DNA from: Pararhodobacter aggregans
GTDB lineage: Bacteria > Pseudomonadota > Alphaproteobacteria > Rhodobacterales > Rhodobacteraceae
Direction of reading: 5' to 3'
Assembly: GCF_003075525.1 (NCBI RefSeq)
Contig: NZ_QDDR01000011.1
Coordinates: 124,001-188,000, forward strand
Length of the DNA: 64,000 nt
Both the position numbers and the translations under genes were made by a program. Of this stretch, positions 45,010-64,000 are shown piece by piece. The notes below the pieces were generated by a model. It was not told where the DNA came from. It searched no databases and saw only the letters and a list, made by a program, of their open reading frames with translations. Numbering within the stretch: position 1 is the stretch's first letter; every line of letters begins with the position of its first letter.

Positions 45010-45035
45010 GTCGTCTCCTCCTCAGGTTATGGCAG

Positions 45036-46115: not shown

Positions 46116-46181
46116 CGGCTCGCTCCCGCTCCCTCGGACCCAGTCCGAACTCGAGGCGATACTTGCCACCTGCCATCTTTT

Positions 46182-46203: not shown

Positions 46204-46222
46204 CCATCAATGCGTATGACAC

Positions 46223-48286: not shown

Positions 48287-48317
48287 GGGGGCTCCTGCAC
48301 CGGACAGAGGAGAGATA

Positions 48318-48345
48318 CGGCGAGCAAGGCGAAGGCCGCTCGCCG
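48318..48345 (-). promoter_or_regulatory. stem-loop after the ABC binding-protein gene
   Basis: 8-bp stem CGGCGAGC / GCTCGCCG with a 12-base loop, 13 bp after the substrate-binding protein stop. No T-run. It matches the arrangement after dctP and tctC. Confidence 0.5.
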
Positions 48346-48358
48346 CAGGTATGGGGGG

Positions 48359-49450: not shown

Positions 49451-49557
49451 GATATCCTCCCATGTGCCGGGTTTCTGCCCGGGCGTCAGTCAACAATCCT
49501 CAAGGCGTGGCGCCTCTCCGGCGCCCCGTCAGACTTTTGGGATCGTGCGATCCGGTT

Positions 49558-50382
49558 CTACTGCCAGTGCAACAGGCGGCGCCCGATCAGGACGACCGAG
49601 GCATCCAGCAAGAGCCCCAGCATTGTCGTCACGACGAGCGTGGCGAACAATCCGGCGGTGTCGAACTGGCTGGCGCTGAGCGAGATCAGGTAGCCAAGCC
49701 CGCGGTTCGACGAGAACATCTCGGCAACGACAGCGCCAATCAGCGCGAAGGGGGCGGAAATGCGCAGCCCGGCAAAGACCCAGGACAAGGCCGAGGGCAC
49801 GAAGACCTTCGCCACCGCATTCCAGCGCGATGCGCCCATCACCTTGATCACGTCAATCAGGTCGGCATCGACCGATCGGATCCCCGACAGCGTGTTCATG
49901 AAGATCGGAAAGAACACCAGCAAGGCGGTGAAGGCGACCTTCATCTCGAACCCGATGCCAAGCCAAAGCACGAACAACGGCACCAGCGCGACGCGTGGCA
50001 GCGAATAGAGCCCCACCAGATAGGGGTCCAGCACCCGAGCCACGACCGGATTGAGGCCCAGAAGTATCCCCAGCCCCATGCCAAGCACGGTGCCCGAGGC
50101 AAACCCCGCGAGTGCCACGCCGACCGTCGCCGACACGGCCGAGACCATGCGCCCGTCAGCGGTCATGGTCCAGAGCGTGGTGACGATCTCGGACGGGCTG
50201 GAAACCCAGAAGCCCGAGAACCAGCGCCCGCTGCCCCATTCCCAAAGACCCAGCGACACCACCGCAAACAGGATCTGCAGGATCAGCACCAGCCGGTTCT
50301 CGCGGCGACGCAGGGCAATGGCGGGGTCGGCGTCGAGCGCTTGGTCAGCGCCGATGGGGTGTGGGTCGGTCACAATAGTCAT
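49558..50382 (-). CDS. ABC transporter permease (SsuC/TauC-like)
   Basis: 274-residue inner membrane permease with about six hydrophobic segments. The EAA loop is visible as VIKVMGASRWNAVAKVFVPSALSWVFAGLR, the ATPase contact site; LWEWGSGRWFSGFWVSSPSEI is typical of the N-terminus. The ATG at 50382 overlaps the ATPase stop (ATGA). Longer in-frame sequence upstream is a shadow of the ATPase gene. Confidence 0.92.
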   Translation of the reverse strand: MTIVTDPHPIGADQALDADPAIALRRRENRLVLILQILFAVVSLGLWEWGSGRWFSGFWVSSPSEIVTTLWTMTADGRMVSAVSATVGVALAGFASGTVLGMGLGILLGLNPVVARVLDPYLVGLYSLPRVALVPLFVLWLGIGFEMKVAFTALLVFFPIFMNTLSGIRSVDADLIDVIKVMGASRWNAVAKVFVPSALSWVFAGLRISAPFALIGAVVAEMFSSNRGLGYLISLSASQFDTAGLFATLVVTTMLGLLLDASVVLIGRRLLHWQ

Positions 50383-51173
50383 GTCGCGGCCTCCCCGCTG
50401 GCCAGATCCTGCTTGAGCGCAGCCCAGAGTTCCTCGAAGTAGTCGCCAAATTCCGGCTGAAAGCGGATGTGGAACACATCCCTCGGCCTGGGCAGCCGGA
50501 TATCGGCAATGGCGATGATCCTGCCGGGACGCCCCGACATGACGATCACCCGGTCGGCCAGCGAGATCGCCTCGGTCAGGTCGTGGGTGACGAAGATCAG
50601 CGTCTTGCCCGAGCCTTCCCATGTTTTCAGAAGCTCGGCCTGCAGCATCAGCTTGAGCTGCGCGTCCAGCGCGCCGAAAGGTTCGTCCATCAACAGCGTG
50701 TCGGGCTCATACACCAGGGACCGGGCCAGTTGCGCGCGCTTGCGCATGCCACCCGACAATTCCTTGGGATAGTGCTTCTCGAAGCCTTTCAGCCCGACCA
50801 TGGCGATATAGCGCGCCACGCGCTCGCGCTTTTCCGCCTCGGACAACCGCTTGTGCGGCCCCATCTCCAGCGGCAGGCGGATGTTCTGTTCGACGCTGCG
50901 CCACGGCAGAAGATTGTCCTTCTGCGTCACATAGGCGACTTGCGTGTTGGCGCCGCTGATCGCCTGGCCCTTGTAGCGTATGGCGCCGGTCCCGGGCTTC
51001 ATCAGCCCGGCGGTCATGTTCAGCAAGGTCGACTTGCCACAGCCCGACGGACCGACGACCGCCAGCAACTCGCCCTCGCGCACCGAAAGGTTCAGCCGCC
51101 CCAGCGCCTGTATCGGCACCGTTCCCTTGAAAAAGACCTTCGATACGTCGTCGAATTCCACGATGGGGATCAT
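50379..51173 (-). CDS. ABC transporter ATP-binding protein (SsuB/TauB-like)
   Basis: 264 residues. Walker A GPSGCGKST, Q-loop VTQKDNLLPW, signature LSGGMRKRAQLARSL, Walker B TLLMDEPFGALD and H-loop FVTHDLTEA are complete. It powers the importer made of the next two genes. GGAGGAGGG lies upstream of the start. It is 60 bp after the aldehyde dehydrogenase stop on the same strand, probably in one operon. Confidence 0.95.
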   Translation of the reverse strand: MIPIVEFDDVSKVFFKGTVPIQALGRLNLSVREGELLAVVGPSGCGKSTLLNMTAGLMKPGTGAIRYKGQAISGANTQVAYVTQKDNLLPWRSVEQNIRLPLEMGPHKRLSEAEKRERVARYIAMVGLKGFEKHYPKELSGGMRKRAQLARSLVYEPDTLLMDEPFGALDAQLKLMLQAELLKTWEGSGKTLIFVTHDLTEAISLADRVIVMSGRPGRIIAIADIRLPRPRDVFHIRFQPEFGDYFEELWAALKQDLASGEAAT

Positions 51174-51233
51174 TGTCCCTCCTCCCTGTCGCTGCCCGGC
51201 GCCGCCGCGTTCTCCTCCCGGCGGCGCGGCAGC

Positions 51234-52709
51234 TCAATTGTCGAGCCGGATCTGCACCGTCTTCACCGTCTGATATTCCTGCAAGCCCTGACGCCCGAAT
51301 TCGCGCCCGATCCCGCTGTCCTTGACGCCCCCGTGCGGCATGTCGTCGATACCCGCCGAATTATAGCAGTTCACGAACATCTTGCCTGTCCTGACGCTCC
51401 GGGCAACGCGCAACGCCGTGTCGATCGAGCGCGACCAGACCCCCCCGGCAAGACCGTAGGCGCTGTCATTGGCCAGGGCTACGGCCTCGGCCTCGTCGCT
51501 GAAGGGGATGACCGACAACACCGGGCCAAAGATTTCCTCCTGCGCAAGGCGCGAGGCATTGCTCAGGCCGGCAAAGATCGTCGGCGCCATGAAATACCCC
51601 TCGCCTGTCGGCCCGCCGCACAGTCGGCGCCCCTCGGTGTCGCCCAGTTCGACGTAGCGCGACACGCGCGCGAACTGCTCGTCGTTCACCAGGGGGCCCA
51701 TCGTTGTGGCCGCGTCCGCCGGGTTGCCCAGAACCTGCCGTCCTGCGGCCTGCGCCAGCGCCTCGACAAACTGGTCGTGGATCGAGCGCTGGACCAGCAA
51801 GCGGCTTCCGGCCGAGCATTGCTGACCGCTGTTGAAACAGAACGCGCTGATCGCGGTGGTCACAGCGGCCTCGAACGGCGCATCGGCAAAGACAATATTG
51901 GCCGATTTGCCCCCCAGTTCGAGTGCCACATGCTTGTTGTTGCCCGACGCCGCCCGCATCACCGCGCGGCCTGTCGTCGTCGAGCCGGTAAAGGCCACCT
52001 TGTCGACCAGATCGGACCCGGCCAGCACCTGCCCGACGGTGCCGCCCCGCTCCAGATCCGAGGTGACGAGGTTGAACACGCCCTCAGGCAACCCCGCTTC
52101 GGCCAGCACCTCGGCCAGCACGGCGACGGGGCCGGGGCACAGGTGCGACGGCTTGATGACCACGGTGCAGCCCGCCGCCAGTGCCGGTGCAATCTTGCAC
52201 ACCGGGTTGAGCATCGGGAAATTCCACGGCGTGATGAAGGCGCAGACCCCGACGGGTTCGGGCAGGATCAGCCCCATCGCCTGCGGAACGCGGCCAGCGA
52301 TTGCCGCTCCCTCATCCGCCAAAGCCAGGCCTGCATAATAGTCAAAGGTCCGGGCGGCCGCACCGGCCTCGCCCCGGGCCAGTGAAACCGGTTTGCCGGA
52401 TTCGGCGACCATCCGGGCGGCAAAATCCTCGATCCGGGCGCGGATGGCGTCTGCCACCCGGCGCAACAGATCGTGCCGTTCGCGGGCCGAGGACCGCGGC
52501 CAGGGTCCGGTGTCGAAGGCCCCGCGCGCGGCGCGGATCGCCGCGTCGGCGTCCGCGGCCGTGGCATTGGCGAAGCTGGCGGCTATGCTTCCATCATAGG
52601 GGTTGGTTCGATCGAACCGCCGGCCTTCCCGGGCCCCGGTCCATGCCGAGCCGATGAACAGCTCGTAGGCGGGCCCCTGAGCGCGAATGGATGCCGCGTT
52701 GATGGTCAT
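51234..52709 (-). CDS. NAD(P)-dependent aldehyde dehydrogenase
   Basis: 491-residue aldehyde dehydrogenase, normal length. NAD site FITPWNFPML and KPSHLCPGP; catalytic Glu in LELGGKSANIV (about residue 258) and Cys in FNSGQQCSAGSRL (about residue 292); EEIFGPVLSVIPF follows. The ATG at 52709 has GGGAGAAGG upstream. It heads the minus-strand unit with the ABC importer and MBL gene and shares a divergent promoter region with the hydroxyacid dehydrogenase. Substrate unknown; probably oxidises a pathway aldehyde. Confidence 0.95.
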   Translation of the reverse strand: MTINAASIRAQGPAYELFIGSAWTGAREGRRFDRTNPYDGSIAASFANATAADADAAIRAARGAFDTGPWPRSSARERHDLLRRVADAIRARIEDFAARMVAESGKPVSLARGEAGAAARTFDYYAGLALADEGAAIAGRVPQAMGLILPEPVGVCAFITPWNFPMLNPVCKIAPALAAGCTVVIKPSHLCPGPVAVLAEVLAEAGLPEGVFNLVTSDLERGGTVGQVLAGSDLVDKVAFTGSTTTGRAVMRAASGNNKHVALELGGKSANIVFADAPFEAAVTTAISAFCFNSGQQCSAGSRLLVQRSIHDQFVEALAQAAGRQVLGNPADAATTMGPLVNDEQFARVSRYVELGDTEGRRLCGGPTGEGYFMAPTIFAGLSNASRLAQEEIFGPVLSVIPFSDEAEAVALANDSAYGLAGGVWSRSIDTALRVARSVRTGKMFVNCYNSAGIDDMPHGGVKDSGIGREFGRQGLQEYQTVKTVQIRLDN

Positions 52710-52775
52710 GTCCTTCTCCCGACTTCTGCGCGACCCTTGAAGATCGCTTGTCCTGCGTCTCAGTATCGCTACAGT

Positions 52776-52789
52776 AATGTCCGAACATT
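52776..52789. promoter_or_regulatory. AATGT-N4-ACATT operator, site A
   Basis: AATGTCCGAACATT lies in the 100-bp gap between the aldehyde dehydrogenase and hydroxyacid dehydrogenase start codons. It is one of five related sites in the 52-62 kb cluster; the UTRA-type GntR protein (55132-55857) is the likely partner. Confidence 0.75.
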
Positions 52790-52809
52790 TGCAATCGGGA
52801 AACAGAAAA

Positions 52810-53883
52810 ATGTCTGACCGGCCACCCTTCCCCATTCGCCTGACCGACCACGACCATATTCTGCGGCTGGCTCAGGACCTGATCGCCTGGGACGATCCGG
52901 CCGCACAGGCTCGGGCCAAGGCCTTCTTTCTGCCCGAAAAGGCACAGCATACGCTGCTGGAATCGGTGTTCGCACCGTTGCGGGATCTGTGCCGGCCGAC
53001 AGTCTCGGCCCCCGGCACGCCCGCCGCCGAGGCGCGCGTCCTGCTCTCGCGCCGGGGCGCGGTCGACCGGGCCGCGCTGACCGAATCAGGCAAGGTTGCT
53101 CTGGTGCAACGGATCGGCGAGCGACCGAAAGGTCTGGACATTAGCGCCTGCAAAGCGCACGGGGTGGCGGTATCGCTGCTGCCCCGCCGCAGCCTCACGC
53201 ATGTCGCCGATCACGCGATGCTGCTGATCCTGGCGCTTTCGCGACGGGTTGAGGCGATGCAGGCCGGGCTTCGCGACTATCGTGGCACGCCGGGCGAGGC
53301 CGGCGCGGTCAGCTACAACTGGCCAGGGGTCGAGGGCATGCGCGCGCTGGCCGGCCAGACGCTTGGCATCGTCGGCATGGGCGAAATCGGCTGGTTGCTC
53401 GCCCGGCGCGCCGAGGCTTTCGGGATGCACATCGTCTGGACCGCGCGCTCTGCGCAAGCGGGCGATGGGCTGCCGCAGACCTGGCAGCGCAGGCATTTTC
53501 CCGACCTGCTGGCGCAAGCCGACGTCGTCACCCTGCATGTCCCCCCGACGGGGTTGAGCGGCCCGCTGATCGGCCACGCGGAACTGGCGCTGATGAAACC
53601 CGGCGCCCTGCTGATCAACACCGCGCGCGGCGCGCTGATCGATGAACAGGCGCTGCTCGCGGCGCTTCAGTCGGGGCTTTTGGCGGGAGCGGGTCTGGAC
53701 GTTCACGCCCGCGAACCCGTCATTGCTGCCGATCCCTTGCGGGCGCTGCCCAATGTGCTGGCCACGCCGCATGTCGCCGGCGGCTCGCGGCTCGAAGTGC
53801 TGCAGGAGATGCGGGCGATCTGCGACAATCTCGTCGATACGCTGAACGGCCAGCCGCCGCGCCACGGGAGGGTTCCGGCATGA
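52810..53883 (+). CDS. D-2-hydroxyacid dehydrogenase family protein
   Basis: 357-residue NAD(P)-dependent dehydrogenase of the formate/glycerate dehydrogenase family. GIVGMGEIGWLLARRAEAFG is the nucleotide loop (about residue 190). The catalytic Arg and Glu region is NTARGALIDEQALLAAL and GAGLDVHAREP, with TPHVAGG holding the catalytic His. The ATG at 52810 is chosen because the earlier ATG at 52777 lies inside the operator. It overlaps the next gene by ATGA. The N-terminal half is less conserved, as usual. Substrate unknown. Confidence 0.9.
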   Translation: MSDRPPFPIRLTDHDHILRLAQDLIAWDDPAAQARAKAFFLPEKAQHTLLESVFAPLRDLCRPTVSAPGTPAAEARVLLSRRGAVDRAALTESGKVALVQRIGERPKGLDISACKAHGVAVSLLPRRSLTHVADHAMLLILALSRRVEAMQAGLRDYRGTPGEAGAVSYNWPGVEGMRALAGQTLGIVGMGEIGWLLARRAEAFGMHIVWTARSAQAGDGLPQTWQRRHFPDLLAQADVVTLHVPPTGLSGPLIGHAELALMKPGALLINTARGALIDEQALLAALQSGLLAGAGLDVHAREPVIAADPLRALPNVLATPHVAGGSRLEVLQEMRAICDNLVDTLNGQPPRHGRVPA

Positions 53884-55127
53884 GGCGCCCCGCCCTCGCC
53901 CCCTTGTTGCGCCCGGGTGACATGCTGATGTGGTCGCAAGGTGCGGCGGAACCCGTTGACCTGATACGCGAAGCGCTGGCGGCCTTGCCCGACCTCGGCG
54001 ACCTTGCCGTGTTTCTGGCCGGTGGGTACGCGCGGCTGATCGGCCCCGACGCCGATCCGCGCCTGCGCATTCACGGTATGGGCGCGGTCGGGTCAAACCG
54101 TGCCCTTTGCGCAGCAGGCCGCATGCAGGTTCACCCGGTCAACCTGTCGCAACTCCCGTTCCTGCTTGAGCACGGGATCGTGCCGGTCTCGGTGGTGCTG
54201 CTGCAGACCGGCCCCGCCGGACCCGCAGGCCAGACCTCGCCCGGCGGGGTGCAGCCCTTCGCGCGCTACGCCCTGCCCCGGGCGCGGGTTGCCATGGCCG
54301 AGATCAACGCGGCGGCACCCCGCACCCGAACGCGACACCCCCTCGATCTTGCGCGATTCGACGGCGTTGTCGAAACTGAACGCCCGCTGATCGAGGTGCC
54401 GCAACCCGAACCCGGTGCTCTCGACCGACAGATCGCGCAGCACGCCGCGGCGCTGATCCGCGATGGCGACATCTTGCAGATCGGGATCGGCACCCTGCCC
54501 ACGGCGATCCTGCACGCCTTGCACGGTCATCGCCATCTTGGCCTGCACAGCGGGGTGATCGGTGACGCGGTGATGCCCCTGATCGACTCGGGCGTGATCG
54601 ACAACAGTCTGAAGACGCGCGACCCCGGCCTGACCGTGACAGGCGCTCTGGCTGGCAGCGCGGCGCTCTATCAATTCGCCGATGACAATCCGGCACTGCT
54701 GCTCGAACCCGTCCATTACACGCATGCCCCGGAAACTCTGGCCCGGCTGCGCAATTTCGTGGCTGTCAATTCGGCCATCGAGGTGGATCTCACCGGGCAG
54801 GCAGCCTCCGAGATCGCCGGCAGGCGCTATCTCGGCACCATCGGCGGGCAGGTCGATTTCGTGCGCGGGGCGCTGGCGTCAGAGGGGGGGCGCTCGCTGA
54901 TCTGTCTGCCCAGCCGGACAGCGAAAGGGCACGCACGCATCGTGGCCGGCCTGTCCTCGGGCATCGTCACCCTGCCGCGCGCCGAAGCGGATATCGTGGT
55001 CACGGAATGGGGTCACGCGACGCTGAGAGGGCTGAGTGTGCAGGAACGGGCGCGACGGATGATCGCCATCGCCCACCCTGATGACCGCGACGGGCTTGAG
55101 CGCGCGGCCAGAGAGCTGCCCGGATAG
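53880..55127 (+). CDS. acetyl-CoA hydrolase/CoA-transferase family protein
   Basis: 415-residue family I-type CoA-transferase (4-hydroxybutyrate or acetate CoA-transferase-like). It has DILQIGIGTLPTAILHAL, GLHSGVIGDAVMPLIDSG and FVAVNSAIEVDLTGQAASE, where the Glu is the expected CoA-thioester residue; GTIGGQVDFVRGA follows. It moves CoA between an acid and an acyl-CoA, so it may activate the pathway substrate. The start overlaps the dehydrogenase stop (ATGA). It is convergent with the GntR gene, with 4 bp between stops. Confidence 0.92.
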   Translation: MRRPALAPLLRPGDMLMWSQGAAEPVDLIREALAALPDLGDLAVFLAGGYARLIGPDADPRLRIHGMGAVGSNRALCAAGRMQVHPVNLSQLPFLLEHGIVPVSVVLLQTGPAGPAGQTSPGGVQPFARYALPRARVAMAEINAAAPRTRTRHPLDLARFDGVVETERPLIEVPQPEPGALDRQIAQHAAALIRDGDILQIGIGTLPTAILHALHGHRHLGLHSGVIGDAVMPLIDSGVIDNSLKTRDPGLTVTGALAGSAALYQFADDNPALLLEPVHYTHAPETLARLRNFVAVNSAIEVDLTGQAASEIAGRRYLGTIGGQVDFVRGALASEGGRSLICLPSRTAKGHARIVAGLSSGIVTLPRAEADIVVTEWGHATLRGLSVQERARRMIAIAHPDDRDGLERAARELPG

Positions 55128-55131
55128 GGGC

Positions 55132-55857
55132 TCAGGACGGGTTTTCGTGCAGGAAGTCAACCTCTTGCCGATAGCGGTCAGGCCGGGCGCTGACGCTGGT
55201 ATGCAAGATGGCCGCGCCTTGCGCGTCGAAATAGGTGCGCTTGAGGATCAGCACCGGATCGCCCACCGCCATCCCCAGCTGGCGCGCGGCGATCGCTCCC
55301 GCCGCAGCTGCCGTCGCGACCTGCCGCACCCGGACTGACCGCACCCGGCCATATTTCTCGACCAGCTGGATCAGGGGCTCGGTGCCCAGCAGAGCCTCGG
55401 GAATGTTGCGGGTCATCTCGGGGCGGGTGAAGACATCGGCCAGCGCATAGGGAATCCCCTCGGCCAGCAACAGGCGCATGATGTAGAACAACTGCGCCTC
55501 ACGCGGCAGGCCAAAGACCTGCGCGGCCTCGGCGTGCTCGGCCAGCCCGACATTCTGCGCCACCAGCGTCAGGTAATCCTCGGGGGCGAATTCGCCGATC
55601 AGGTTTCCCAGCACCCCCACCGCCCAGACGCCGCCGCGCGCCCGGTCGGTGATGCGGGTGCCGGAACCGGCGCGACGCTCGATCAATCCCTCGGCGACGA
55701 GGTGCTGCAACGCCGAGCGCATGGTGTGGCGGCTGCAATCGAACTCCTGCATCAGCAGAATTTCGGGCGGCAGTTCTTCAGCGTCGTAAAAGCCCTGCGC
55801 GATGCGCCGGCGCAGCTCGTCGCTGATCTTCAGATGCAGAGGGGGAACTCGGGTCAA
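55132..55857 (-). CDS. GntR family regulator with UTRA domain (HutC subgroup)
   Basis: 241 residues. The winged helix covers residues about 7-72 (SDELRRRIAQGFYDAEELPP, FDCSRHTMRSALQHLVAEGLI, RRAGSGTRI). The UTRA ligand domain follows, with QLFYIMRLLLAEGIPYALAD and VLILKRTYFDAQGAAILHTS. Such repressors usually respond to a pathway intermediate. A dyad of the AATGT-N4-ACATT kind lies just upstream of the gene and four more in the cluster, so it is the probable local regulator of the catabolic operons. Confidence 0.93.
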   Translation of the reverse strand: MTRVPPLHLKISDELRRRIAQGFYDAEELPPEILLMQEFDCSRHTMRSALQHLVAEGLIERRAGSGTRITDRARGGVWAVGVLGNLIGEFAPEDYLTLVAQNVGLAEHAEAAQVFGLPREAQLFYIMRLLLAEGIPYALADVFTRPEMTRNIPEALLGTEPLIQLVEKYGRVRSVRVRQVATAAAAGAIAARQLGMAVGDPVLILKRTYFDAQGAAILHTSVSARPDRYRQEVDFLHENPS

Positions 55858-55881
55858 AGGGCTCTCGTATGGCGGGTGCCA

Positions 55882-55895
55882 TTTGTTCTAACATT
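55882..55895. promoter_or_regulatory. AATGT-N4-ACATT-like operator, site E
   Basis: TTTGTTCTAACATT has nine of ten consensus arm bases. It lies 25 bp upstream of the GntR start, between it and the SDR gene, a good place for autoregulation. Confidence 0.55.
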
Positions 55896-55913
55896 TCCCA
55901 CGCAGAGATCAAC

Positions 55914-56693
55914 CTATCCCGCCGCGCGCCATCCGGGCACCGGCCACCCGGCGGTCAGACCGCCATCGACGACAAAGTCCTGTCCTGAAACGTAGGCGGC
56001 AGCGTCCGAGGCAAGGAAAGTCACCATCGAGGCAACCTCGTCCGGTTGCCCGGCGCGTCCAAGCGGGACCTGCGCGGCGAGATCGTCGAGATAGGGCTGG
56101 TCGCGGTTCATGGAAGTGACGACCAGGCCCGGGCATACGGTGTTCACCCTGATCCCAAGCGGCGCCAGCTCCATCGCGGCGGAGCGGCTCAATCCCCGGA
56201 CCGCCCATTTCGAGGCTGCGTAGACCGAAAAGCTGTGGCCGCCCAGCCCGGCAATCGACGCGATGTTCACGATGGATCCGCCACCAGAGCGGGCCATTGA
56301 TCCAGCGACCGCGCGCATGCCCAGCATGACCCCGTAAACGTTCACGGCGAAGAGGTGCTGACAGCGATCAAGGTCGCAGTCCAGAAGGCCCCGGCGTTCG
56401 GTCGTCCCGGCGCAATTGACCAGAATTTGCGGCGCCGAGGCGGCAGCGACGGCGTCCCAATCGGCGGATCGGGTCACATCGAGCGGGTGAAAACGGACCT
56501 CGAGGCCGCTCAGGCGCAGGTTTCGGGCAATCTGAGCCCCGGCCGGGTCGTTGAGATCGGCGATCGTCACCCGCGCCCCTGCCCTCGCCAATCCGGCGGC
56601 GATGGCCTGACCGAGCCCTCCGGCGCCGCCCGTGACCAGTGCCTGGCGGCCCGCCAGGCTGGTCGGCAAGTCCTTGGTGATTGGCCCGGACAC
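55914..56693 (-). CDS. SDR family oxidoreductase
   Basis: 259-residue short-chain dehydrogenase with the classical tetrad. The nucleotide loop is TGGAGGLGQAIA, then NCAGTTERRG. Ser lies in VNIASIAGLGG and Tyr-x3-Lys in SVYAASKWAV; PGLVVTSM and GQDFVVDGGLTAG complete the pattern. The start is a GTG sharing one base with the stop of the alcohol dehydrogenase. In a ring-degradation pathway it would oxidise a 3-hydroxyacyl-CoA (BadH-like role); that is inference from the BadI-like neighbour. Confidence 0.93.
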   Translation of the reverse strand: MSGPITKDLPTSLAGRQALVTGGAGGLGQAIAAGLARAGARVTIADLNDPAGAQIARNLRLSGLEVRFHPLDVTRSADWDAVAAASAPQILVNCAGTTERRGLLDCDLDRCQHLFAVNVYGVMLGMRAVAGSMARSGGGSIVNIASIAGLGGHSFSVYAASKWAVRGLSRSAAMELAPLGIRVNTVCPGLVVTSMNRDQPYLDDLAAQVPLGRAGQPDEVASMVTFLASDAAAYVSGQDFVVDGGLTAGWPVPGWRAAG

Positions 56694-57712
56694 TACACAT
56701 CCTCATCCAGATGAATGACGATTTTGCCAAACTGCCCGCGCCCGGCGCCATATCGCAACGCCTCGGAAATCGCGTCAGGCCCGAAGCGACGGTCGATAAC
56801 CGGCTCGATCCGCAAGGCCGAGAGCGCCTTGTTCATCGCCTCGAAATCGGCGCGGCTGCCCACAGCGATCCGCCGATATGTCGCGCCCATCGCCAGCATC
56901 AGGATCGCCGGATCAACCTTCGGCGCATCAACCGGCCTGCCGATCAGGTTGATCTGGGCGCCAATCGCGGCGGCCCGGATGGATTGCTCAAGCGTCCCGG
57001 CCTCGCCAATCTCGATGATATGGTCGGCACCCTGCCCCGCTGTGGCGCGCTTCACCGCGTCGCCCCAGTCGGGTGTTTGCCGGTAGTCGATGACCGTTTC
57101 GGCCCCCATCGCCCGCAGACGCTCGGCTTTTGCGGGGGACGAACTGGTGGCAATGACCCGTGCGCCAGCGGCGCGGGCGAATTGCAGGGCAAAGAGCGAA
57201 ACGCCGCCGGTTCCCTGCACAAGCACCACCTCTCCGGGCAGCACAGGACGCGCGCCGGTCAAGACCTGCCACCCGGTCAACCCCGCACAGGGCAGGCAGG
57301 CCGCCTGTCCCCAGTCGAGATGTGCCGGGGCCGCGACCACCGCGTCCTCGCGCAGGATCACCACCTCCTGCAGCATCCCGTCCACCGTCGACCCCGGTAT
57401 GACCGAGCGCGCGCCATCCGAGATCGGACCGGCCTGCCAGCGCGGGAAGAAGGTCGTAACGACCCGGTCGCCCGTCGTCCAGGCTGACACGGCCGGACCG
57501 ACCTCCAGCACCTCGCCCGCGCCGTCAGACAGCGGGACCAGCCCCGACCGGCCGCCGGGGAAGGTTCCGGCAATGACCTTGAGGTCGAGATAGTTCAGCG
57601 ACACAGCCCGCATGCGGACCGCAATCTCGCCCGGCCCCGGGCGCGGAATCGCGACGTCGGCCAGCGTGATTCCGTCCGGTCTGCCGCTTCCATCAGTTCT
57701 GTAGCTCTTCAT
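56693..57712 (-). CDS. zinc-independent alcohol dehydrogenase/quinone reductase-like (MDR family)
   Basis: 339-residue medium-chain dehydrogenase/reductase. It has the catalytic-domain segment AVSLNYLDLKVIAGTFPGG and the nucleotide loop VLVQGTGGVSLFALQFA (about residue 165). The Cys/His zinc ligands of true alcohol dehydrogenases are missing, so a quinone- or enoyl-reductase type NADPH enzyme is more likely. It heads the minus-strand unit with the SDR and GntR genes and is divergent from the thiolase. Confidence 0.9.
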   Translation of the reverse strand: MKSYRTDGSGRPDGITLADVAIPRPGPGEIAVRMRAVSLNYLDLKVIAGTFPGGRSGLVPLSDGAGEVLEVGPAVSAWTTGDRVVTTFFPRWQAGPISDGARSVIPGSTVDGMLQEVVILREDAVVAAPAHLDWGQAACLPCAGLTGWQVLTGARPVLPGEVVLVQGTGGVSLFALQFARAAGARVIATSSSPAKAERLRAMGAETVIDYRQTPDWGDAVKRATAGQGADHIIEIGEAGTLEQSIRAAAIGAQINLIGRPVDAPKVDPAILMLAMGATYRRIAVGSRADFEAMNKALSALRIEPVIDRRFGPDAISEALRYGAGRGQFGKIVIHLDEDV

Positions 57713-57778
57713 GTCTTCCTGCCGGGGCTGTGATTTGTTGCCGTGATGCTCGGACAGAAAATAGCGCTTGTCAATTTA

Positions 57779-57792
57779 AATGTCCGTACATT
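57779..57792. promoter_or_regulatory. AATGT-N4-ACATT operator, site B
   Basis: AATGTCCGTACATT, with perfect outer arms, lies in the 107-bp divergent region between the MDR gene and the thiolase, 27 bp from the thiolase start. Confidence 0.75.
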
Positions 57793-57819
57793 ATGGTGGC
57801 GACAAGAGGGAGAATCCAC

Positions 57820-58983
57820 ATGAGTGTCGAGATCATTGGCTGGGGCCACACCCGGTTCGGGCGCAGCGCATTGACGCTGGAAGCGCTGATTGTCGAGGCG
57901 GTAACGCAAGCCCTGGCGCATGCCGAAACGCCGGCGGAAGAGATCGACGAAATCGTGCTGGGCCATTTCAACGCCGGCTTCTCGGCGCAGGATTTCACCG
58001 CGGCATTGGTGTTGCAGGCCGACCCTGCCCTGCGTTTCCGGCCCGCGACGCGGGTCGAGAACGCCTGCGCGTCGGGCTCCGCGGCGGTTCATGCGGGCGT
58101 CCGTGCGATAGAGGCCGGACAGGCCGGCAAGGTGCTGGTGGTGGGGGCCGAACGGATGAGCGGCGTCACCGGCCCCGAGGTCGGACAAAACCTGCTGCGC
58201 GCCGCCTATCTTGAAGAGGAGAGCGGGGTCGCGGGTGGCTTTGCCGGGCTGTTCGGCCGGGTCGCCGCGCAATATTTCGCCCGCCATGGCGACCAGTCCG
58301 ACGCCCTGGCCGCGATTGCGGCCAAGAACCATCGCAACGGGGCCGACAACCCGCTGGCGCATCTGCAAAAGGATCTGGGGCTGGCGTTCTGCCGTGCCGT
58401 CACCCCCGAAAACCCCCTCGTCGCCGGCCCGCTCCGCCGCACCGATTGCTCACCGGTCTCTGACGGCGCGGCGGCCCTCGTGCTCAGCCTTGGCTCGGCG
58501 CATGACGCGCCCCGCGCGGTTCGGGTGGCCGGTACCGCGCATGTTCAGGATTTCCTGCCCGTCAGCTGGCGCGACCCGTTGCTGATGGAGGGCTGCACCG
58601 AGGCGTGGCACCGCGCCCTCAAGCATGCGGGCTGGAGCATGGACACGCTGTCCTTCGTCGAAACGCATGATTGTTTCACCATCGCGGAACTGCTGCAGTA
58701 CGAAGCCATGGGCCTCGCGCCACATGGCCACGGCGCCGATGTGGTGGCCAGCGGTCTGACCGAACGCGACGGACGCCTGCCGGTCAACCGCTCGGGCGGG
58801 CTGAAAGCCAAGGGCCACCCGATCGGCGCGACCGGCGTCTCGATGCACGTCATGGCCGCAATGCAACTCACCGGCGAAGCCCCCGATGCCATGCAGCTCG
58901 GCCGGGCCGACCGGGCGGGCATCTTCAACATGGGCGGGCTGGGCGTGGCGAATTACGTCACATTGCTGGAAGCCGGACGCTAG
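57820..58983 (+). CDS. thiolase family protein (acetyl-CoA acyltransferase-like)
   Basis: 387 residues, thiolase fold of the SCP2-type group. The nucleophilic Cys is in VENACASGSAAVHAG (about residue 85), with His in FVETHDCFTIAE and KAKGHPIGATG (about residues 285 and 335), so the active site is complete. It cleaves a 3-oxoacyl-CoA, the last step of beta-oxidation. The ATG at 57820 has AGAGGGAG upstream. It is followed 9 bp later by the acyl-CoA synthetase. A second, Cys-less thiolase-like protein is at the right edge. Confidence 0.92.
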   Translation: MSVEIIGWGHTRFGRSALTLEALIVEAVTQALAHAETPAEEIDEIVLGHFNAGFSAQDFTAALVLQADPALRFRPATRVENACASGSAAVHAGVRAIEAGQAGKVLVVGAERMSGVTGPEVGQNLLRAAYLEEESGVAGGFAGLFGRVAAQYFARHGDQSDALAAIAAKNHRNGADNPLAHLQKDLGLAFCRAVTPENPLVAGPLRRTDCSPVSDGAAALVLSLGSAHDAPRAVRVAGTAHVQDFLPVSWRDPLLMEGCTEAWHRALKHAGWSMDTLSFVETHDCFTIAELLQYEAMGLAPHGHGADVVASGLTERDGRLPVNRSGGLKAKGHPIGATGVSMHVMAAMQLTGEAPDAMQLGRADRAGIFNMGGLGVANYVTLLEAGR

Positions 58984-58992
58984 GAGGCGGCC

Positions 58993-60477
58993 ATGAACAT
59001 CGCCGACTGGCTCCATCGGACCGCCGCCCGATCCCCCGATCACCCGGCCCTTTTCAGCGGCACCCGGCCCTGCGCGACCTATGCAGGGTTCGCGCAACAG
59101 GCCGCAGGCCTTGCCGCAGCCCTGCAACGACACGGCGTTCAGCCCGGCGATCCCGTCGCCCTCTACATGCGCAACCAGCCTGAATACCTGATCGGCCTTT
59201 TCGCCATCTGGTGGCACGGCGCGGTTGCGGTGCCGGTCAATGCCAAACTCCACCCGCAGGAGGCAGCCTGGATTGTCACGCATTCCGGCAGTCGGCTGGT
59301 GCTGTCGGATACCGACCACGCCGGGCCGCTTGCCGAGACCCGGGTCGGCGTGCCGATCCTGACCGATCCCGGCGCCGCGCCCGGGGATGCCCTGGCCCGT
59401 CCCGCACCGCGTTCTCAGGATGATCTGGCGTGGATCTTCTACACCTCGGGAACCACGGGCCGGCCCAAGGGCGCAATGCTGAGCCATGGCAACCTTGCCG
59501 CCATGTCGCTGGCCTATCTGGCCGATGTCGACGATGTGCAACCCGCCGACTGCATGCTCTACGCCGCGCCGCTGTCGCATGGAGCCGGGCTCTATAGTCT
59601 GGTGCATGTGCTGCGCGGTGCGCGGCATTGCTTCCCTGAATCCGGCGGCTTCGACGGGGTCGAGGTGCTGGCCCTCGCCCGCGCTCTCGAGCGCGTGTCG
59701 CTGTTCGCCGCCCCCACCATGGTTCGCCGCATGACGGACGCCGCGCGGGACGAAGCGGCCGACGGACAGGGTCTGAAGACGGTTATCTATGGCGGCGGCC
59801 CGATGTATCAGGCCGATCTGGCACGGGCGATGGCGCAGTTCGGGCCGCGGTTCGTGCAGATCTATGGTCAGGGTGAATCGCCCATGACGATAACCGTCCT
59901 CGACCGGGCAGACCACGGAACCGCCGCCCTCCCCGGTCCGCATATCGCCAGCGTGGGCCGCCCCCATTCGACCATCGACCTGCGCGTCACCAACGATGGC
60001 CGCGAGGTCCCGCCCGGCACGCCCGGAGAGGTCGAATTGCGCGGCCCGACCGTCATGCGGGGCTATCTCAACGACCCGGACGCAACGGCCCGCAGCCTGA
60101 AGGATGGGTGGCTCTCCACCGGCGACATCGGCAGCCTTGACGCTCAGGGATACCTGACGCTGACCGACCGTTCGAAGGACGTGATCATCTCCGGCGGCTC
60201 GAATGTCTACCCGCGCGAGGTCGAGGAAATCCTGCTCAGGCATCCGCAGGTGCGCGAGGCTTCGGTGATCGGCGTGCCTGACCCGGAATGGGGCGAAATC
60301 GTCGTCGCCGTTCTGGCCGCCGGGGACTGCGCTGACCTCGAGGAGGAGCTGGACGCGCTGTGTCGCGACAGCATCGCCCGGTTCAAGCGACCCAAACGAT
60401 ATCTGCGTCTCACCGAGTTGCCCAAGAACAGCTACGGAAAAATCCTGAAGACCGAGCTGCGCCGTCTGCTCGCGTAA
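58993..60477 (+). CDS. AMP-dependent acyl-CoA synthetase
   Basis: 494-residue ANL-family ligase. Motifs: FYTSGTTGRPKGAMLSH (A3, ATP binding), VIYGGGPMYQADL, IYGQGESPMTI (A5), DGWLSTGDIGSLDAQGYL (A7-A8), SGGSNVYPREVE (hinge) and NSYGKILKTELR with the C-terminal catalytic Lys. It turns a carboxylic acid into its CoA ester with ATP, entering the pathway. GGAGG lies upstream of the start. Substrate unknown; a cyclic or branched acid is possible. Confidence 0.95.
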   Translation: MNIADWLHRTAARSPDHPALFSGTRPCATYAGFAQQAAGLAAALQRHGVQPGDPVALYMRNQPEYLIGLFAIWWHGAVAVPVNAKLHPQEAAWIVTHSGSRLVLSDTDHAGPLAETRVGVPILTDPGAAPGDALARPAPRSQDDLAWIFYTSGTTGRPKGAMLSHGNLAAMSLAYLADVDDVQPADCMLYAAPLSHGAGLYSLVHVLRGARHCFPESGGFDGVEVLALARALERVSLFAAPTMVRRMTDAARDEAADGQGLKTVIYGGGPMYQADLARAMAQFGPRFVQIYGQGESPMTITVLDRADHGTAALPGPHIASVGRPHSTIDLRVTNDGREVPPGTPGEVELRGPTVMRGYLNDPDATARSLKDGWLSTGDIGSLDAQGYLTLTDRSKDVIISGGSNVYPREVEEILLRHPQVREASVIGVPDPEWGEIVVAVLAAGDCADLEEELDALCRDSIARFKRPKRYLRLTELPKNSYGKILKTELRRLLA

Positions 60478-60517
60478 CGCCCCCAAAACGCACGGTCCGC
60501 CCGAGGCTGCGCCGCAA

Positions 60518-60531
60518 AATGTCCGTATAAT
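60518..60531. promoter_or_regulatory. AATGT-N4-ACATT-like operator, site C
   Basis: AATGTCCGTATAAT has a perfect left arm and half-matching right arm. It lies 14 bp before the ATG of the BadI-like gene, just ahead of the AAGGAG ribosome site. Confidence 0.55.
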
Positions 60532-60545
60532 TCAAGGAGCCGACA

Positions 60546-61343
60546 ATGGACTATTCTGACATCCTTTACGATGTGCGCGACCGCACCGCGACCATCACCG
60601 TCAACCGTCCCCACCGCCTGAACGCCGCGACGCGTCGCACGTATTACGAGATGACCGATGCCATCCGCCGGGCGGGCTGGGACCGCGACATCGGCGTGAT
60701 CGTGCTGACCGGCGCGGGCACGCGCGCCTTCGGTATCGGCGGCGACAAGGACGAAAAGAAAGCCGACCGGGTCGACAACGGCATCGGCGTTCTGGGCAAC
60801 GGGGTCGAGGAATTGCAGACCGCGATCCGCGACGTTCCCAAGCCGGTGATTGCCAAGGTCCGCGGCTATGCTGTCGGCTCGGGCAACGTGCTGGTAACGC
60901 TCTGCGATCTGGCAATTGCCGCTGAAAACGCCGAGTTCGGCCAAGTGGGCCCGAAAATGGGCTCGGTTGATCCCGGCTTTGGCACTGCCTTTCTGGCCCG
61001 CACCGTTGGCGAAAAACGCGCGCGGGAAATCTGGTATCTGTGCCGCCGCTACAAGGCGCACGAGGCTTTGGCGATGGGGCTTGTCAACGCGGTGGTGCCC
61101 GATGACAAGCTGGACGAGGAAGTCGACAGCTGGTGCCGCGAGATCAACGAGCGCAGCCCCACCGCTATCGCCATCGCCAAACGCTCGTTCAACGCCGACA
61201 GCGAGAATATTCGAGGCATCGGTCAGCTCGCGTTCTCGGCCCTCGCCCTCTACTTCGGCACCGACGAGGCCAAGGAAGGCGGCAACGCCCTGCGCGAGAA
61301 ACGCAAGCCCGATTTCGTCGGCTCGATGTACCGCGGCCGCTGA
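60546..61343 (+). CDS. crotonase family, BadI-like (2-ketocyclohexanecarboxyl-CoA hydrolase-like)
   Basis: 265-residue crotonase-fold protein. From memory its closest known match is BadI of Rhodopseudomonas, which opens the ring of 2-ketocyclohexanecarboxyl-CoA to pimeloyl-CoA. Shared stretches include AIRDVPKPVIAKVRGYAVG, FGQVGPKMGSVDPGFGTAFL, ARTVGEKRAREIWYLCRRY, AIAKRSFNAD and EKRKPDF. The GGDKDEKK segment replaces BadI's GGDQ loop. It may instead be a MenB-like 1,4-dihydroxynaphthoyl-CoA relative, but no menaquinone genes are here. If BadI-like, it hydrolyses a cyclic 2-oxo-acyl-CoA by a reverse Dieckmann reaction. Start ATG with AAGGAG. Confidence 0.85.
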   Translation: MDYSDILYDVRDRTATITVNRPHRLNAATRRTYYEMTDAIRRAGWDRDIGVIVLTGAGTRAFGIGGDKDEKKADRVDNGIGVLGNGVEELQTAIRDVPKPVIAKVRGYAVGSGNVLVTLCDLAIAAENAEFGQVGPKMGSVDPGFGTAFLARTVGEKRAREIWYLCRRYKAHEALAMGLVNAVVPDDKLDEEVDSWCREINERSPTAIAIAKRSFNADSENIRGIGQLAFSALALYFGTDEAKEGGNALREKRKPDFVGSMYRGR

Positions 61344-61361
61344 CCCTCGTTTGCCCGCCAA

Positions 61362-61375
61362 AATGTCCGGATATT
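61362..61375. promoter_or_regulatory. AATGT-N4-ACATT-like operator, site D
   Basis: AATGTCCGGATATT lies 4 bp before the family III CoA-transferase start codon, where a ribosome site would be. No separate Shine-Dalgarno is seen. Confidence 0.55.
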
Positions 61376-61379
61376 TCTC

Positions 61380-63395
61380 ATGACACAGCCCAAACAGCCT
61401 TTCCTCCCCCTGGCCGGTCTCACCGTTCTGGAACTGCCCGGCAGGGTCGAGCTGGCGGTCTGCGGCGGCCTCCTCGCCTCGCTGGGGGCGACGGTGCATG
61501 TCATCGAGGGAACGCCACGGCACCCTGCCCGTTACCGCACCGGCAAGCAGACGGTTCATCCGCGCCAGGCCGATGACATAGCCCTGCGCGCCGACGTGAT
61601 CCTTGCCTCGCCGGATGTGTGCCTGTTCCCGGTGCGCAGCCGCGAGGACACGATCCGGTGCGAGATCACGGCTTACGGCAACAGCGGGCCGCTGGCGGGT
61701 CGCCCGGACAGCGAGGCGTTGGTGCAGGCGCGGGCCGGGATCGCCGACACGACGGGACGACCGGAGGGCGCGCCCTGCCTGACAGGCGCGCCCTTCGTCG
61801 GGATGGAAACGGCGCTCTACGCGGCCTCGGCCATCCTCGCCGCCCTGCGCCACCGGGACGCGACAGGCCAAGGCCAGCGCATCGACATGGCGCTTTACGA
61901 TGTGGCAGTCAACGCGCTGCTCACCTTCCTGCCCCTCGCCTTTATCGGGGCCGAGGCGCGGCGCGCGGGCAACCGGCACCCCACGCTGGCGCCCTGGAAT
62001 GCCTACCGCGCCGCCGATGGCTGGGTCCTGATCTGCGCCCCCACCGATGACCAGTGGCGGCGTCTGTGCGGGGTCATGGGCCGCCCGGACATGGCCCTTG
62101 ACCCCGCCTATGACACCACCACCGCCCGGTTTCGCAATGTGGCGGCGCTGGACGCGGCAATCAACGCCTGGACGGGGGCGCATCCGGTCGCCGATGTCGT
62201 TGCTCGCGTCGGCGCGGCGGCCATCCCTTGCGGCGCAATCCACGCCCTGACGGACCTGGCCGGTGACGCGAACCTTCTCCACCGCCGCTCGCTGGTGCCA
62301 GACGAGGATGGCAAGTTTCTGGTCCGCAATCCAATCCGCGCCATCGGCTACGACGTTCCGCCCGTTGAGGGCAGCTCCACCCCGCCCTTGCCGAAACCCG
62401 CGCGCCCGCGCGCCATGGCTGACATCCGGGTGCTCGAGATCGGCATGAACACCGTCGCTCCCCTCGCCTGTCGGCATCTCGGCGCGCTGGGTGCCGAGGT
62501 TATCAAGGTCGAGCCACCGACGGGCGATTCAAACCGGGTCAACATGCCGTTGCGCGACAGCGACGGGCAGTCCTATGTCTTCGCGCTGTCGAACACGGAC
62601 AAGCATGGCATCGTTCTGGACCTGCGCGCGCCGGACGACGCGGCCATCCTTTGGCGGCTGGTCGATACCGCCGATGTGGTGATCGAGAACCTCAAGCCGG
62701 GCTCTCTTTCCCGGCTGGGTTTCGGCGCCGACGCGATCCGCGCCCGCCGTCCCGGGATCGTGCATTGCTCGGTCAGCGGCTTCGGGCATGACAGCGCCTG
62801 GCCCGGACGTCCCGCGCTGGACACGGTGGTTCAGGCCCTGTCGGGCGCGATGGCGGCAACGCCGGTCGACGGCATGCCGACCAAGGCCGGTATCTCGATC
62901 GCCGATCAGCTTGGCGGGCAGTTCGGGCTTCTGGGTATCCTCGCGGCCCTCTATTGGCGCGATCGCACCGGCTCGGGCGTCACGCTGGATATCGCGATGC
63001 AGGATTGCACCGTCTGGGCGACGCAGAGCGCCTTCGACGCCCTTGAGCCCGGCGCACGGCTGACCACCTGCCTGAACGGCTGGATCGCCGTCGAAGCCCC
63101 GGTTGACATGGCCCATCTTTCGCGCGACGCGGCGCTCAAAGCCTGCACGGCACGGGGGCAAGCGGTTGCGCCGGTGCTTTCCGTCGCCGAAGTCCTCGCC
63201 GCCCCCCAGACCGCCGCACGCGCGTTGTTGCTGGAGGTTCCGACAGCCGATGGCAGCCACTGGACGGTCCTTGGCTCCCCCCTGAAGCTGAGCGCGACGC
63301 CTGCGCGGGTGCGCTCGGCCATGCCGCGTCTGGGCTGGCCTGACCCGCTGGTGACGGCTCTGACCGCGTCGACGCGCGAGGCCCATGATGCGTGA
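61380..63395 (+). CDS. tandem fused family III CoA-transferase (CaiB/BaiF)
   Basis: 671 residues made of two family III CoA-transferase copies, roughly residues 1-340 and 345-671; ordinary members have one copy of about 400. The second copy has RVLEIGMNTVAPLACRHLG, ALSNTDKHGIVLDLR, VVIENLKPGSLSRLGFG and ISIADQLGGQFG with the catalytic-position Asp. The first copy has VLELPGRVELAV, PFVGMETALYAASAILAAL and APWNAYRAADGWVLICAPT, but Gly stands where the Asp belongs. It probably transfers CoA through the second copy only. Ribosome site weak; operator site D overlaps it. Frame intact. Confidence 0.9.
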   Translation: MTQPKQPFLPLAGLTVLELPGRVELAVCGGLLASLGATVHVIEGTPRHPARYRTGKQTVHPRQADDIALRADVILASPDVCLFPVRSREDTIRCEITAYGNSGPLAGRPDSEALVQARAGIADTTGRPEGAPCLTGAPFVGMETALYAASAILAALRHRDATGQGQRIDMALYDVAVNALLTFLPLAFIGAEARRAGNRHPTLAPWNAYRAADGWVLICAPTDDQWRRLCGVMGRPDMALDPAYDTTTARFRNVAALDAAINAWTGAHPVADVVARVGAAAIPCGAIHALTDLAGDANLLHRRSLVPDEDGKFLVRNPIRAIGYDVPPVEGSSTPPLPKPARPRAMADIRVLEIGMNTVAPLACRHLGALGAEVIKVEPPTGDSNRVNMPLRDSDGQSYVFALSNTDKHGIVLDLRAPDDAAILWRLVDTADVVIENLKPGSLSRLGFGADAIRARRPGIVHCSVSGFGHDSAWPGRPALDTVVQALSGAMAATPVDGMPTKAGISIADQLGGQFGLLGILAALYWRDRTGSGVTLDIAMQDCTVWATQSAFDALEPGARLTTCLNGWIAVEAPVDMAHLSRDAALKACTARGQAVAPVLSVAEVLAAPQTAARALLLEVPTADGSHWTVLGSPLKLSATPARVRSAMPRLGWPDPLVTALTASTREAHDA

Positions 63396-64000
63396 CGCCG
63401 GGCGCCTCTCTGCCCTGTCAGGCATTGCCGCGGTCGCGGGACTTGGCGAGACGGACTATGCCGCCGATGCCGAGGCCAGCCGGAACGGCCGGGTCTTTGA
63501 CAGCTACGGGCTTGCAGCGACCGCCTTTCAGCGCGCACTGACCGACGCCGGGCTGAAACGCCGTGACATTGACGGGCTGATCGTCGGCGCTCCCCTGGCG
63601 CTGGAACGGACCGGAGAGGTGCTTGGCCTCGACCTCGGGTTCGCGGTGCAGGCGGATGCCGTGAACGCGGTCATGCAGGCCGTCACAGCAATCCACGCGG
63701 GTCTGGCCGAGTGCATTGCCCTGGTCTACGGCAACAACCAGCGCAGCGCCGGAACCGCCTATGGCGGCCCGCAGGCGATGGGCGGCGACCGTTTCCTGGC
63801 CTATGTGCAATACGCCCCCTGGGGCCTGACCTCGCAGGGCGCCCTCTATGCGATGATGGCCAGCCGCTACATGGCCGAAACCGGCTTCACGGCTTCGGAC
63901 CTCGGCCAGATCGTCTCGGGCATCCGGGCTTTCGCCCGGCTCAATCCCCAGGCGATCCGGCGCCGCGCCCTGCCGGTGGCCGAGTATCTCGCCAGCCCCT
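63385..64000 (+). CDS. thiolase-like protein without active Cys, partial at right edge
   Basis: 205 codons visible from the ATG at 63385, overlapping the CoA-transferase end; the rest is outside the window. The thiolase-like fold is recognisable from GIAAVAGLGETDYAADAEAS, then GLIVGAPLALE and YGNNQRSAGTAYGG. At the place of the catalytic Cys the sequence reads AVNAVMQAVTAIHAG, that is Val-Met in place of Cys-x, so it should lack thiolase Cys chemistry. Such proteins often pair with a small OB-fold zinc protein, which could lie just beyond the edge. Confidence 0.8.
   Translation, partial: MMRDAGRLSALSGIAAVAGLGETDYAADAEASRNGRVFDSYGLAATAFQRALTDAGLKRRDIDGLIVGAPLALERTGEVLGLDLGFAVQADAVNAVMQAVTAIHAGLAECIALVYGNNQRSAGTAYGGPQAMGGDRFLAYVQYAPWGLTSQGALYAMMASRYMAETGFTASDLGQIVSGIRAFARLNPQAIRRRALPVAEYLASP

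Follow-up and report, generated by a model that had tools for sequence, protein, structure and literature searches.

The closest described relatives of the system reported here are local regulons of the HutC subfamily of GntR regulators. Most HutC-subfamily members recognize a palindrome in which GT and AC lie 4 nt apart, with the consensus GTMTAKAC and a TA centre, and position 39 of their helix-turn-helix (HTH) correlates with the central operator bases; a histidine at this position goes with G/C in YtrA proteins, and AraR makes a His-G contact (excerpts of PMC4494728). In NagR, Arg48 reads G-4 and Arg38 reads G-5 (excerpt of PMC4333415). The operator consensus of Bacillus subtilis AraR is At(T/A)tGTaCGTAcaa(A/T)T (excerpt of PMC4218819). 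Here we analyse a 64,000-nucleotide window of the Pararhodobacter aggregans genome (contig C11:124001-188000), in which a preliminary description had marked five copies of an AATGT-N4-ACATT dyad as the sign of a local regulon. We are confident in predicting that these sites are operators of the UTRA-domain GntR protein encoded at 55132-55857, which would repress the whole cluster of coenzyme A (CoA) genes around it.

All five dyads were found at the positions reported for them. Relative to AATGT-N4-ACATT they carry no mismatches (52776 and 57779), one (61362) or two (60518 and 55882). Two indeed lie in divergent regions, and the BadI-like, CoA-transferase and UTRA gntR genes each have a site in front of them. 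They are listed below; L054 is a stretch of the Sinorhizobium fredii GR64 plasmid pSfreGR64c.

52776 to 52789, no strand: putative operator 1, AATGTCCGAACATT, between the diverging genes for the aldehyde dehydrogenase (left) and the D-2-hydroxyacid dehydrogenase (right); S. fredii counterpart at L054:25384.
57779 to 57792, no strand: putative operator 2, AATGTCCGTACATT, where the zinc alcohol dehydrogenase-like gene (left) and the thiolase operon (right) diverge; S. fredii counterpart at L054:10776.
60518 to 60531, plus strand: putative operator 3, AATGTCCGTATAAT, in the gap upstream of the BadI-like gene; a weak S. fredii site lies in the same gap (L054:13655, 11.8 bits).
61362 to 61375, plus strand: putative operator 4, AATGTCCGGATATT, 4 bp before the CoA-transferase start codon; S. 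fredii counterpart at L054:14532.
55882 to 55895, minus strand: weak putative autoregulatory operator before gntR, TTTGTTCTAACATT on the plus strand; similar S. fredii site at L054:29577.

The four strong window sites have a CG centre, and the weak 55882 site and L054:29577 have a CT centre. Taken alone, 55882 looks marginal as an operator; it agrees in 12 of 14 bases with the S. fredii site before the gntR gene and its neighbour for a metallo-beta-lactamase (MBL) fold protein (TATGTTCTGACATT). At up to two mismatches the window holds 10 matches, with 4.39 expected and 9 in the richest of 100 shuffles. As chance alone would give about half that number, the analysis was extended to the whole genome and to other species.

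In the assembly of 5,079,942 bases, the CG-centred form AATGTCCGNANANT occurs exactly at four places, all in the window (52776, 57779, 60518 and 61362), a count that measures specificity and not discovery, as the pattern was drawn from these four sites. At one mismatch it gives 15 forward and 7 reverse matches, compared with 3 in each direction when the pattern is read backwards. With G fixed at position 8, AATGTNNGNACATT has two exact places, both in the window, and nine further places lie at one mismatch, two of them in the window (53129 and 61362). The bare dyad AATGTNNNNACATT has 16 places at up to one mismatch, four in the window (52776, 57779, 61362 and 53129); its backwards-read pattern gave four.

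Models built on sites from other bacteria point to the same places. A sequence-only model, R1, was made from nine foreign sites (six from S. fredii and three from L056, a locus described below). Across the whole genome at E<=10 it recovered 57779 (E 0.013), 52776 (0.068) and 61362 (1.0), all in the window. The reciprocal model, R2, made from four window sites and the three L056 sites, was run on the 2.52 Mb S. fredii plasmid with stricter filters than the genome search and found five places, all within the syntenic cluster. In the same plasmid AATGTNCGNACATT occurs at seven places at up to one mismatch, six of them in the cluster. A held-out weight matrix from the nine foreign sites ranked the five sites 1, 2, 3, 4 and 7 in the 64 kb (30.9, 30.2, 26.3, 19.7 and 15.5); in 40 simulated windows the best score averaged 8.35 and never exceeded 15.88. 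Matrix scores below about 20 are best taken as weak evidence by themselves. All five sites fall within the 619 non-gene bases of 47327-64000, and none of 300 palindrome-preserving column permutations gave five hits in non-gene bases (maximum 2). Over 32 kb of nearby sequence on this contig, in three stretches that take in a paralogous BadI cluster, the matrix reached at most 7.3; it stayed below 0 over 43.0-47.3 kb of the window. Chance was rejected as the source of the sites on the genome-wide counts of the CG-centred forms, the foreign-site models and the column permutations.

Matrix ranks 5 and 6 are 8731 (19.0) and 53129 (18.1), both in coding sequence. Site 8731, in an open reading frame (ORF) far from the cluster, was rejected. 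The sequence at 53129-53142, AAGGTCTGGACATT, absent from the preliminary description, is one mismatch from the dyad. It is probably a chance match, because it lies within the 2-hydroxyacid dehydrogenase gene and has no S. fredii counterpart at the same place; the S. fredii site for that gene is near the gene's other end (L054:26463). It could serve as an auxiliary operator, but the unrelated gene at 8731 gives a similar score. Genome G675 has weak sites on four contigs: those on C73 and C2 fall within ORFs, and those on C25 and C40 (L059 and L060) score 19.0 and 17.7.

The S. fredii plasmid holds the best plasmid relatives of both the GntR protein (55%) and the BadI-like protein (84%). Fifteen of 18 tested window genes, from the MBL gene through the second thiolase, have counterparts in L054 at 32-84% identity, the short-chain dehydrogenase (SDR) counterpart at a different place of the cluster; the three tested genes left of the MBL gene have none at 1e-8. 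S. fredii sites precede the thiolase (10776 and 10895), the BadI-like gene (13655), the family III CoA-transferase (14532) and the MBL-gntR pair (29577 and 29732), and one lies in the gap between the aldehyde and 2-hydroxyacid dehydrogenase genes (25384). All of these match situations in the window, including both intra-operon gaps. Additional S. fredii sites, before the ATP-binding cassette (ABC) binding protein gene (21919 and 22038) and within the end of the 2-hydroxyacid dehydrogenase gene (26463), have no window equivalent. The S. fredii CoA-transferase operator sits in a 28-bp near-perfect palindrome, GCTTCTAAATGTTCGTACATTTAGAAGC (L054:14525-14552).

The proposed binder of these sites is encoded within the cluster:

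55132 to 55857, minus strand: GntR-family regulator with a UTRA domain (HutC subfamily).

Its GntR-type winged HTH matches PF00392 (4.9e-14, 52.2 bits, cut-off 27) and its C-terminal part the UTRA family PF07702 (3.5e-17, 63 bits, cut-off 23.8). It matches 18 NCBIfam families, HutC, PhnF and other named equivalogs among them, and reaches the curated cut-off of none (for example, 82.3 for TIGR02018, cut-off 220, and 78.4 for TIGR02325, cut-off 156.8). It aligns over nearly its full length with the NagR chains 2wv0 and 4u0v (positions 5-230 of 241). Arg43 stands at the position of NagR Arg48 and the operator keeps G-4, so the register is that of NagR; Ile33 stands at the position of NagR Arg38, and the operator base is T-5 instead of G-5. 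The residue after Arg43 is His44 here and in the S. fredii and L056 relatives, which go with a CG centre, and Met in NagR. The suggestion in the preliminary description that a TGT-N4-ACA core suits GntR proteins agrees with the published GT-N4-AC spacing of the HutC subfamily (excerpt of PMC4494728). This spacing is present in the nine foreign sites, 52776 and 57779; the usual MTAK centre is replaced by CG in the nine foreign sites and the four strong window sites. The proteins of two genomes of one genus, G470 and G641, have Gln or Tyr at the His44 position with the same CG centre; thus, histidine is not required for it. The recognition helix (Arg43-His44, with no Arg at the NagR Arg38 position) would fit the operator and resembles that of AraR.

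Sites and regulator also occur together outside the two clusters. L056 is a 20.7 kb locus of a metagenome-assembled genome (MAG) in which the GntR homologue (45%) is the sole tblastn match among the 18 window proteins. It carries three perfect sites (3316, 3636 and 3668) before a Porin_2 gene, at a distance of 6-7 kb from gntR; the 4.4 Mb assembly has no other exact site. Two of the three lie 32 bp apart, a spacing that suggests cooperative binding. The porin family and the rhizobial matches of a lyase gene suggest that the contig is alphaproteobacterial, though the MAG is labelled Planctomycetota. The GntR relatives of G470 and G641 (32-34%) come with a single WWTGTNCGNACAWW per genome; this copy, ATTGTCCGGACAAT, lies directly before their own gntR, between TTGACA and TAGCGT. 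Among four new class genomes, the palindrome precedes gntR in these two, is degenerate in G380 (AATGTACGTATGTT) and is lacking before gntR in G474. In keeping with a link to GntR, two plasmid loci that have relatives of the BadI-like protein and the two-domain CoA-transferase, and no GntR match at 1e-8 (L066 and L067), reach best scores of 5.6 and 6.3 and have no site. The presence of the sites, their genome-wide specificity, their conservation and their co-occurrence with this regulator are observations. From the co-occurrence in three settings and the residue-base correlations, the protein that binds the sites is very probably the UTRA GntR protein.

With the window genome included in every count, the GntR protein was matched in one of 295 family genomes at E<=1e-30 and, by the GntR profile A2, in five of 385 class genomes at 1e-35 and one of 398 phylum genomes at 1e-40; the search of genome contigs gave one GntR locus. 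No further orthologous cluster was found among these family, class and phylum genomes. BadI-like proteins were matched in 44 of the 385 class genomes, the window genome again included. Salipiger abyssi has a GntR relative (38%) with SRPT where the window protein has SRHT. Close to it lies AATGGTATGACATT (L055:18091-18104, 3 mismatches), perhaps a diverged operator; it occupies the gap upstream of an ABC transporter that shares 45% (permease) and 48% (ATPase) identity with that of the window.

The genes of the cluster are as follows, with the percentage found for the S. fredii counterpart:

47327 to 48286, minus strand: MBL-fold hydrolase, last gene of the left operon (32%).
48359 to 49450, minus strand: NMT1-like ABC substrate-binding protein (54%).
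49558 to 50382, minus strand: ABC transporter permease, named by reading (70%).
50379 to 51173, minus strand: ABC transporter ATPase (77%).
51234 to 52709, minus strand: aldehyde dehydrogenase, with the ABC transporter and MBL genes downstream (66%).
52810 to 53883, plus strand: D-2-hydroxyacid dehydrogenase (47%).
53880 to 55127, plus strand: acetyl-CoA hydrolase/transferase-like CoA-transferase (56%).
55914 to 56693, minus strand: short-chain dehydrogenase (49%, elsewhere in the S. fredii cluster).
56693 to 57712, minus strand: zinc-type alcohol dehydrogenase / quinone reductase-like protein (61%).
57820 to 58983, plus strand: thiolase of the PRK07516 family (65%).
58993 to 60477, plus strand: AMP-dependent acyl-CoA ligase (57%).
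60546 to 61343, plus strand: BadI-like (MenB/BadI group) enoyl-CoA hydratase homologue (84%).
61380 to 63395, plus strand: two-domain family III CoA-transferase, CaiB type (52%).
63385 to 64000, plus strand, continuing to 64566 on the contig: second thiolase-like gene, named by reading (65% for the part in the window).
43921 to 47116, beside the regulon: a protein without a Pfam match (TctC-like by eye), a PrpF-family protein and a divergent LysR gene (46223-47116).

With a site at both divergent regions and before the BadI-like, CoA-transferase and gntR genes, the sites stand before operons of about 15 genes. With operons read from strand and gaps, these genes (47.3-64.6 kb) are supported as one predicted regulon. 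The TctC-like, PrpF and LysR genes at 43.9-47.1 kb have no site scoring at least 10 and are thus not part of it. From 64567 onwards (L084:567-1800) the contig encodes a Cys-rich start, which we take to be of the kind seen in thiolase partner proteins, followed by an SDR that by eye resembles L054:18351-19217.

The cluster combines an ABC importer, several dehydrogenases, two kinds of CoA activation, a BadI/MenB-type enzyme and thiolases, families that point to a CoA-thioester route with probable ring cleavage and thiolysis. The preliminary description had tied these genes to one regulator and thus to one pathway. The foreign-site models and the co-occurrence support the first part for about 15 genes; the second does not follow, since a shared regulator does not prove a shared pathway, and a single pathway is what we infer. 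The BadI-like protein scores 386.1 bits against the BadI equivalog TIGR03210, below its cut-off of 467.6. A second, bad-ali-like cluster lies about 8 kb to the left of the window (C11:110150-116280, L061:5150-11280), with genes that, by reading, encode a GntR-type regulator, two SDRs, an acyl-CoA ligase and an acyl-CoA dehydrogenase. Its BadI homologue shares 66% identity with that of the window; the cluster holds no copy of the dyad and its matrix score is at most 5.3.

Several results weigh against the proposed regulon or narrow it. The bare dyad AATGTNNNNACATT is exact at four genome places, of which two lie elsewhere (AATGTGTATACATT on C1 and AATGTAATAACATT on C4), so the dyad is enriched and clustered here, yet not unique; the genome-wide scoring for which the preliminary description had called favours the CG-centred form and the foreign-site models, which are confined to this cluster, and not the bare dyad. 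The R1 genome search scored 150 of 524 loose candidates and did not recover 60518 or 55882 at E<=10, and R2 missed the S. fredii sites 10776, 10895, 13655, 22038 and 29577. Site 55882 is weak, scoring 15.5 beside a simulated maximum of 15.88, and 61362 lies too near the start codon to supply a -10 of its own. In G474 the only exact palindrome is far from the GntR gene, G380 has no exact palindrome, and the 30.7 kb of S. abyssi hold no site at up to two mismatches. Among 29 loci around BadI-like genes of the other class genomes, six score at least 10 (top 18.7) with the matrix background set to the G+C content of the window, and three hold a 2-mismatch match (L025, L032 and L035). The scoring loci have 39-62% G+C, AT-richer than or similar to the window, and none of the six has a GntR match in the up to 3.7 kb examined per locus.

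That only the two exact sites, perhaps with 61362, are operators and that 60518 and 55882 arose by chance is unlikely, though it deserves the most weight among the alternatives: both sites have two mismatches and fall below the R1 threshold, the coding match at 8731 has nearly the same score as 60518, and six of the 29 loci elsewhere reach scores of 10-19. Yet 60518 keeps an intact AATGTCCG half in a gap where S. fredii has a site too, 55882 is like the S. fredii MBL-gntR site, and both fall among the few non-gene bases. Far less probable is that another protein, such as the LysR regulator (46223-47116) or a global regulator, binds the sites with GntR as a bystander. The link to GntR is drawn from sequence, and the gntR-proximal site is the weakest; nevertheless, L056 shares only the GntR homologue and still has three perfect sites 6-7 kb away, G470 and G641 have the related palindrome directly before gntR and nowhere else, and the spacing and residues fit a HutC-type GntR protein. 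No counterpart of the LysR gene was found in L054, and a global regulator was rejected because the CG-centred sites are confined to the cluster.

Least probable of all is that the repeats are promoter elements (-10-like TACATT or TATAAT with its context) and not operators. Their right half does resemble a -10 hexamer, TTGACT-17-TACATT precedes the S. fredii substrate-binding protein gene, and across all species 15 of 24 site-orientations overlap a promoter-like core (at least 8 of 12 matches), compared with 5% of 400 random positions, a lenient control since these are mostly coding. However, both halves of a two-fold symmetric sequence are conserved in the divergent gaps, and in L062 and L064 the palindrome lies in the spacer between -35 and -10. 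A single promoter-like pair, TTGTCA-18-TATGGT, was found in 17 kb of the window, where 1.4 were expected, and it has operator 2 in its spacer. Site 61362 ends 4 bp before a start codon, where a roadblock or auxiliary operator would be likelier than a separate promoter. The right half of operator 3 (60526-60531) is a perfect TATAAT. In several sites the ACATT half also reads as a -10-like hexamer, and operator and promoter function may there trade off against each other.

Operators of the UTRA GntR protein remain the favoured reading, and the placement of sites in both divergent gaps and upstream of gntR suits a dimeric repressor that binds an inducer through its UTRA domain. Binding, repression, the roles of the internal sites and the effector are all read from sequence. 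A GntR dimer would bind AATGTNCGNACATT-type palindromes with one subunit per AATGT half, in the gap between the aldehyde and 2-hydroxyacid dehydrogenase genes, in that between the alcohol dehydrogenase and thiolase genes, and at two internal sites of the thiolase-ligase-BadI-CoA-transferase operon. That operon (57820-64000) has only two gaps of over 30 bp, each with a site, and in S. fredii these two gaps hold sites as well. Free of inducer, it would cover promoter elements and repress the whole cluster, and at the internal sites it may block weak internal promoters or the path of the polymerase. An acid or CoA-thioester intermediate bound in the UTRA domain would release it, and the weaker operator before gntR would provide autoregulation. 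Repression is preferred over activation because of the position of the sites and the habit of the family.

Literature searches listed no matching gene cluster among their matches. The string TGTCCGGACA was not found together with GntR, matches to ATGTCCGGACAT concern, by title, the p53 family or eIF2, none of the matches listed for TGTCCGTACA is by title on GntR, and none of those listed for GntR, operator, UTRA and ATGTCCG is by title on this operator. The kind of system is ordinary, and this regulator, operator and regulon were not found among the papers listed by these searches. With their proposal, a set of otherwise nondescript dehydrogenase, thiolase and CoA-enzyme genes becomes a single regulon open to test, with a named regulator, an operator sequence and borders (about 47.3-64.6 kb, excluding PrpF and LysR). 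The candidate regulator-operator pair for an uncharacterised UTRA protein would aid the search for its inducer, and hence its substrate, and through its T-5 and CG centre it puts the GntR residue-base code to a natural test.

Similar to the window system, the NagR/YvoA, DasR, HutC and PhnF regulons combine a GntR HTH and a UTRA domain with GT-N4-AC operators, and local regulons of the HutC subfamily likewise have sites in divergent gaps and before the regulator gene. Unlike the TA of the HutC consensus (excerpt of PMC4494728), the centre of the window operators is CG, and their predicted reader has no Arg at the NagR Arg38 position. The targets form a CoA-thioester cluster, and the regulator lies below the cut-offs of all named families matched.

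The bad-ali cyclohexane carboxylate cluster with BadR has, as here, a BadI-type enzyme, an acyl-CoA ligase and dehydrogenases under a local repressor (excerpt of PMC9795900). The operator of BadR is CAAN4TTG. The window differs in its additional thiolases and two-domain family III CoA-transferase, its GntR regulator and its BadI homologue below the equivalog cut-off, and no acyl-CoA dehydrogenase was found among the window genes scanned against families. Identity with the bad-ali pathway was rejected on that cut-off and because the genome has a separate bad-ali-like cluster without these operators.

On the DNA side there is a likeness to AraR, whose operator shares a TGT-NCG-NACA core with those of the window (excerpt of PMC4218819) and whose recognition helix has SRHT, as here, with Asn53 and no arginine at the FadR Arg35 position (excerpt of PMC4494728). 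In a comparison of DNA-binding domains, AraR 4egy, with the shared SRHT, gave 1.9e-07 and PdhR 5kvr a slightly better 4.2e-09. The effector domain of AraR is sugar-binding and of another kind than UTRA. The window protein differs in having UTRA as its effector domain, its operators have AATGT/ACATT flanks, and the targets are different. Tentatively, and at somewhat less than even chances, we suggest that UTRA GntR proteins of a distinct clade recognize AATGTNCGNACATT, a CG-centred operator like that of AraR, by an Arg-His pair in the recognition helix and the loss of the NagR Arg38 contact, so that the same base code would have arisen on two types of effector domain, and that in two bacteria this clade uses external operators and conserved ones within operons to control a CoA-dependent ring-cleavage pathway not described before, which one of the two carries on a conjugative megaplasmid.

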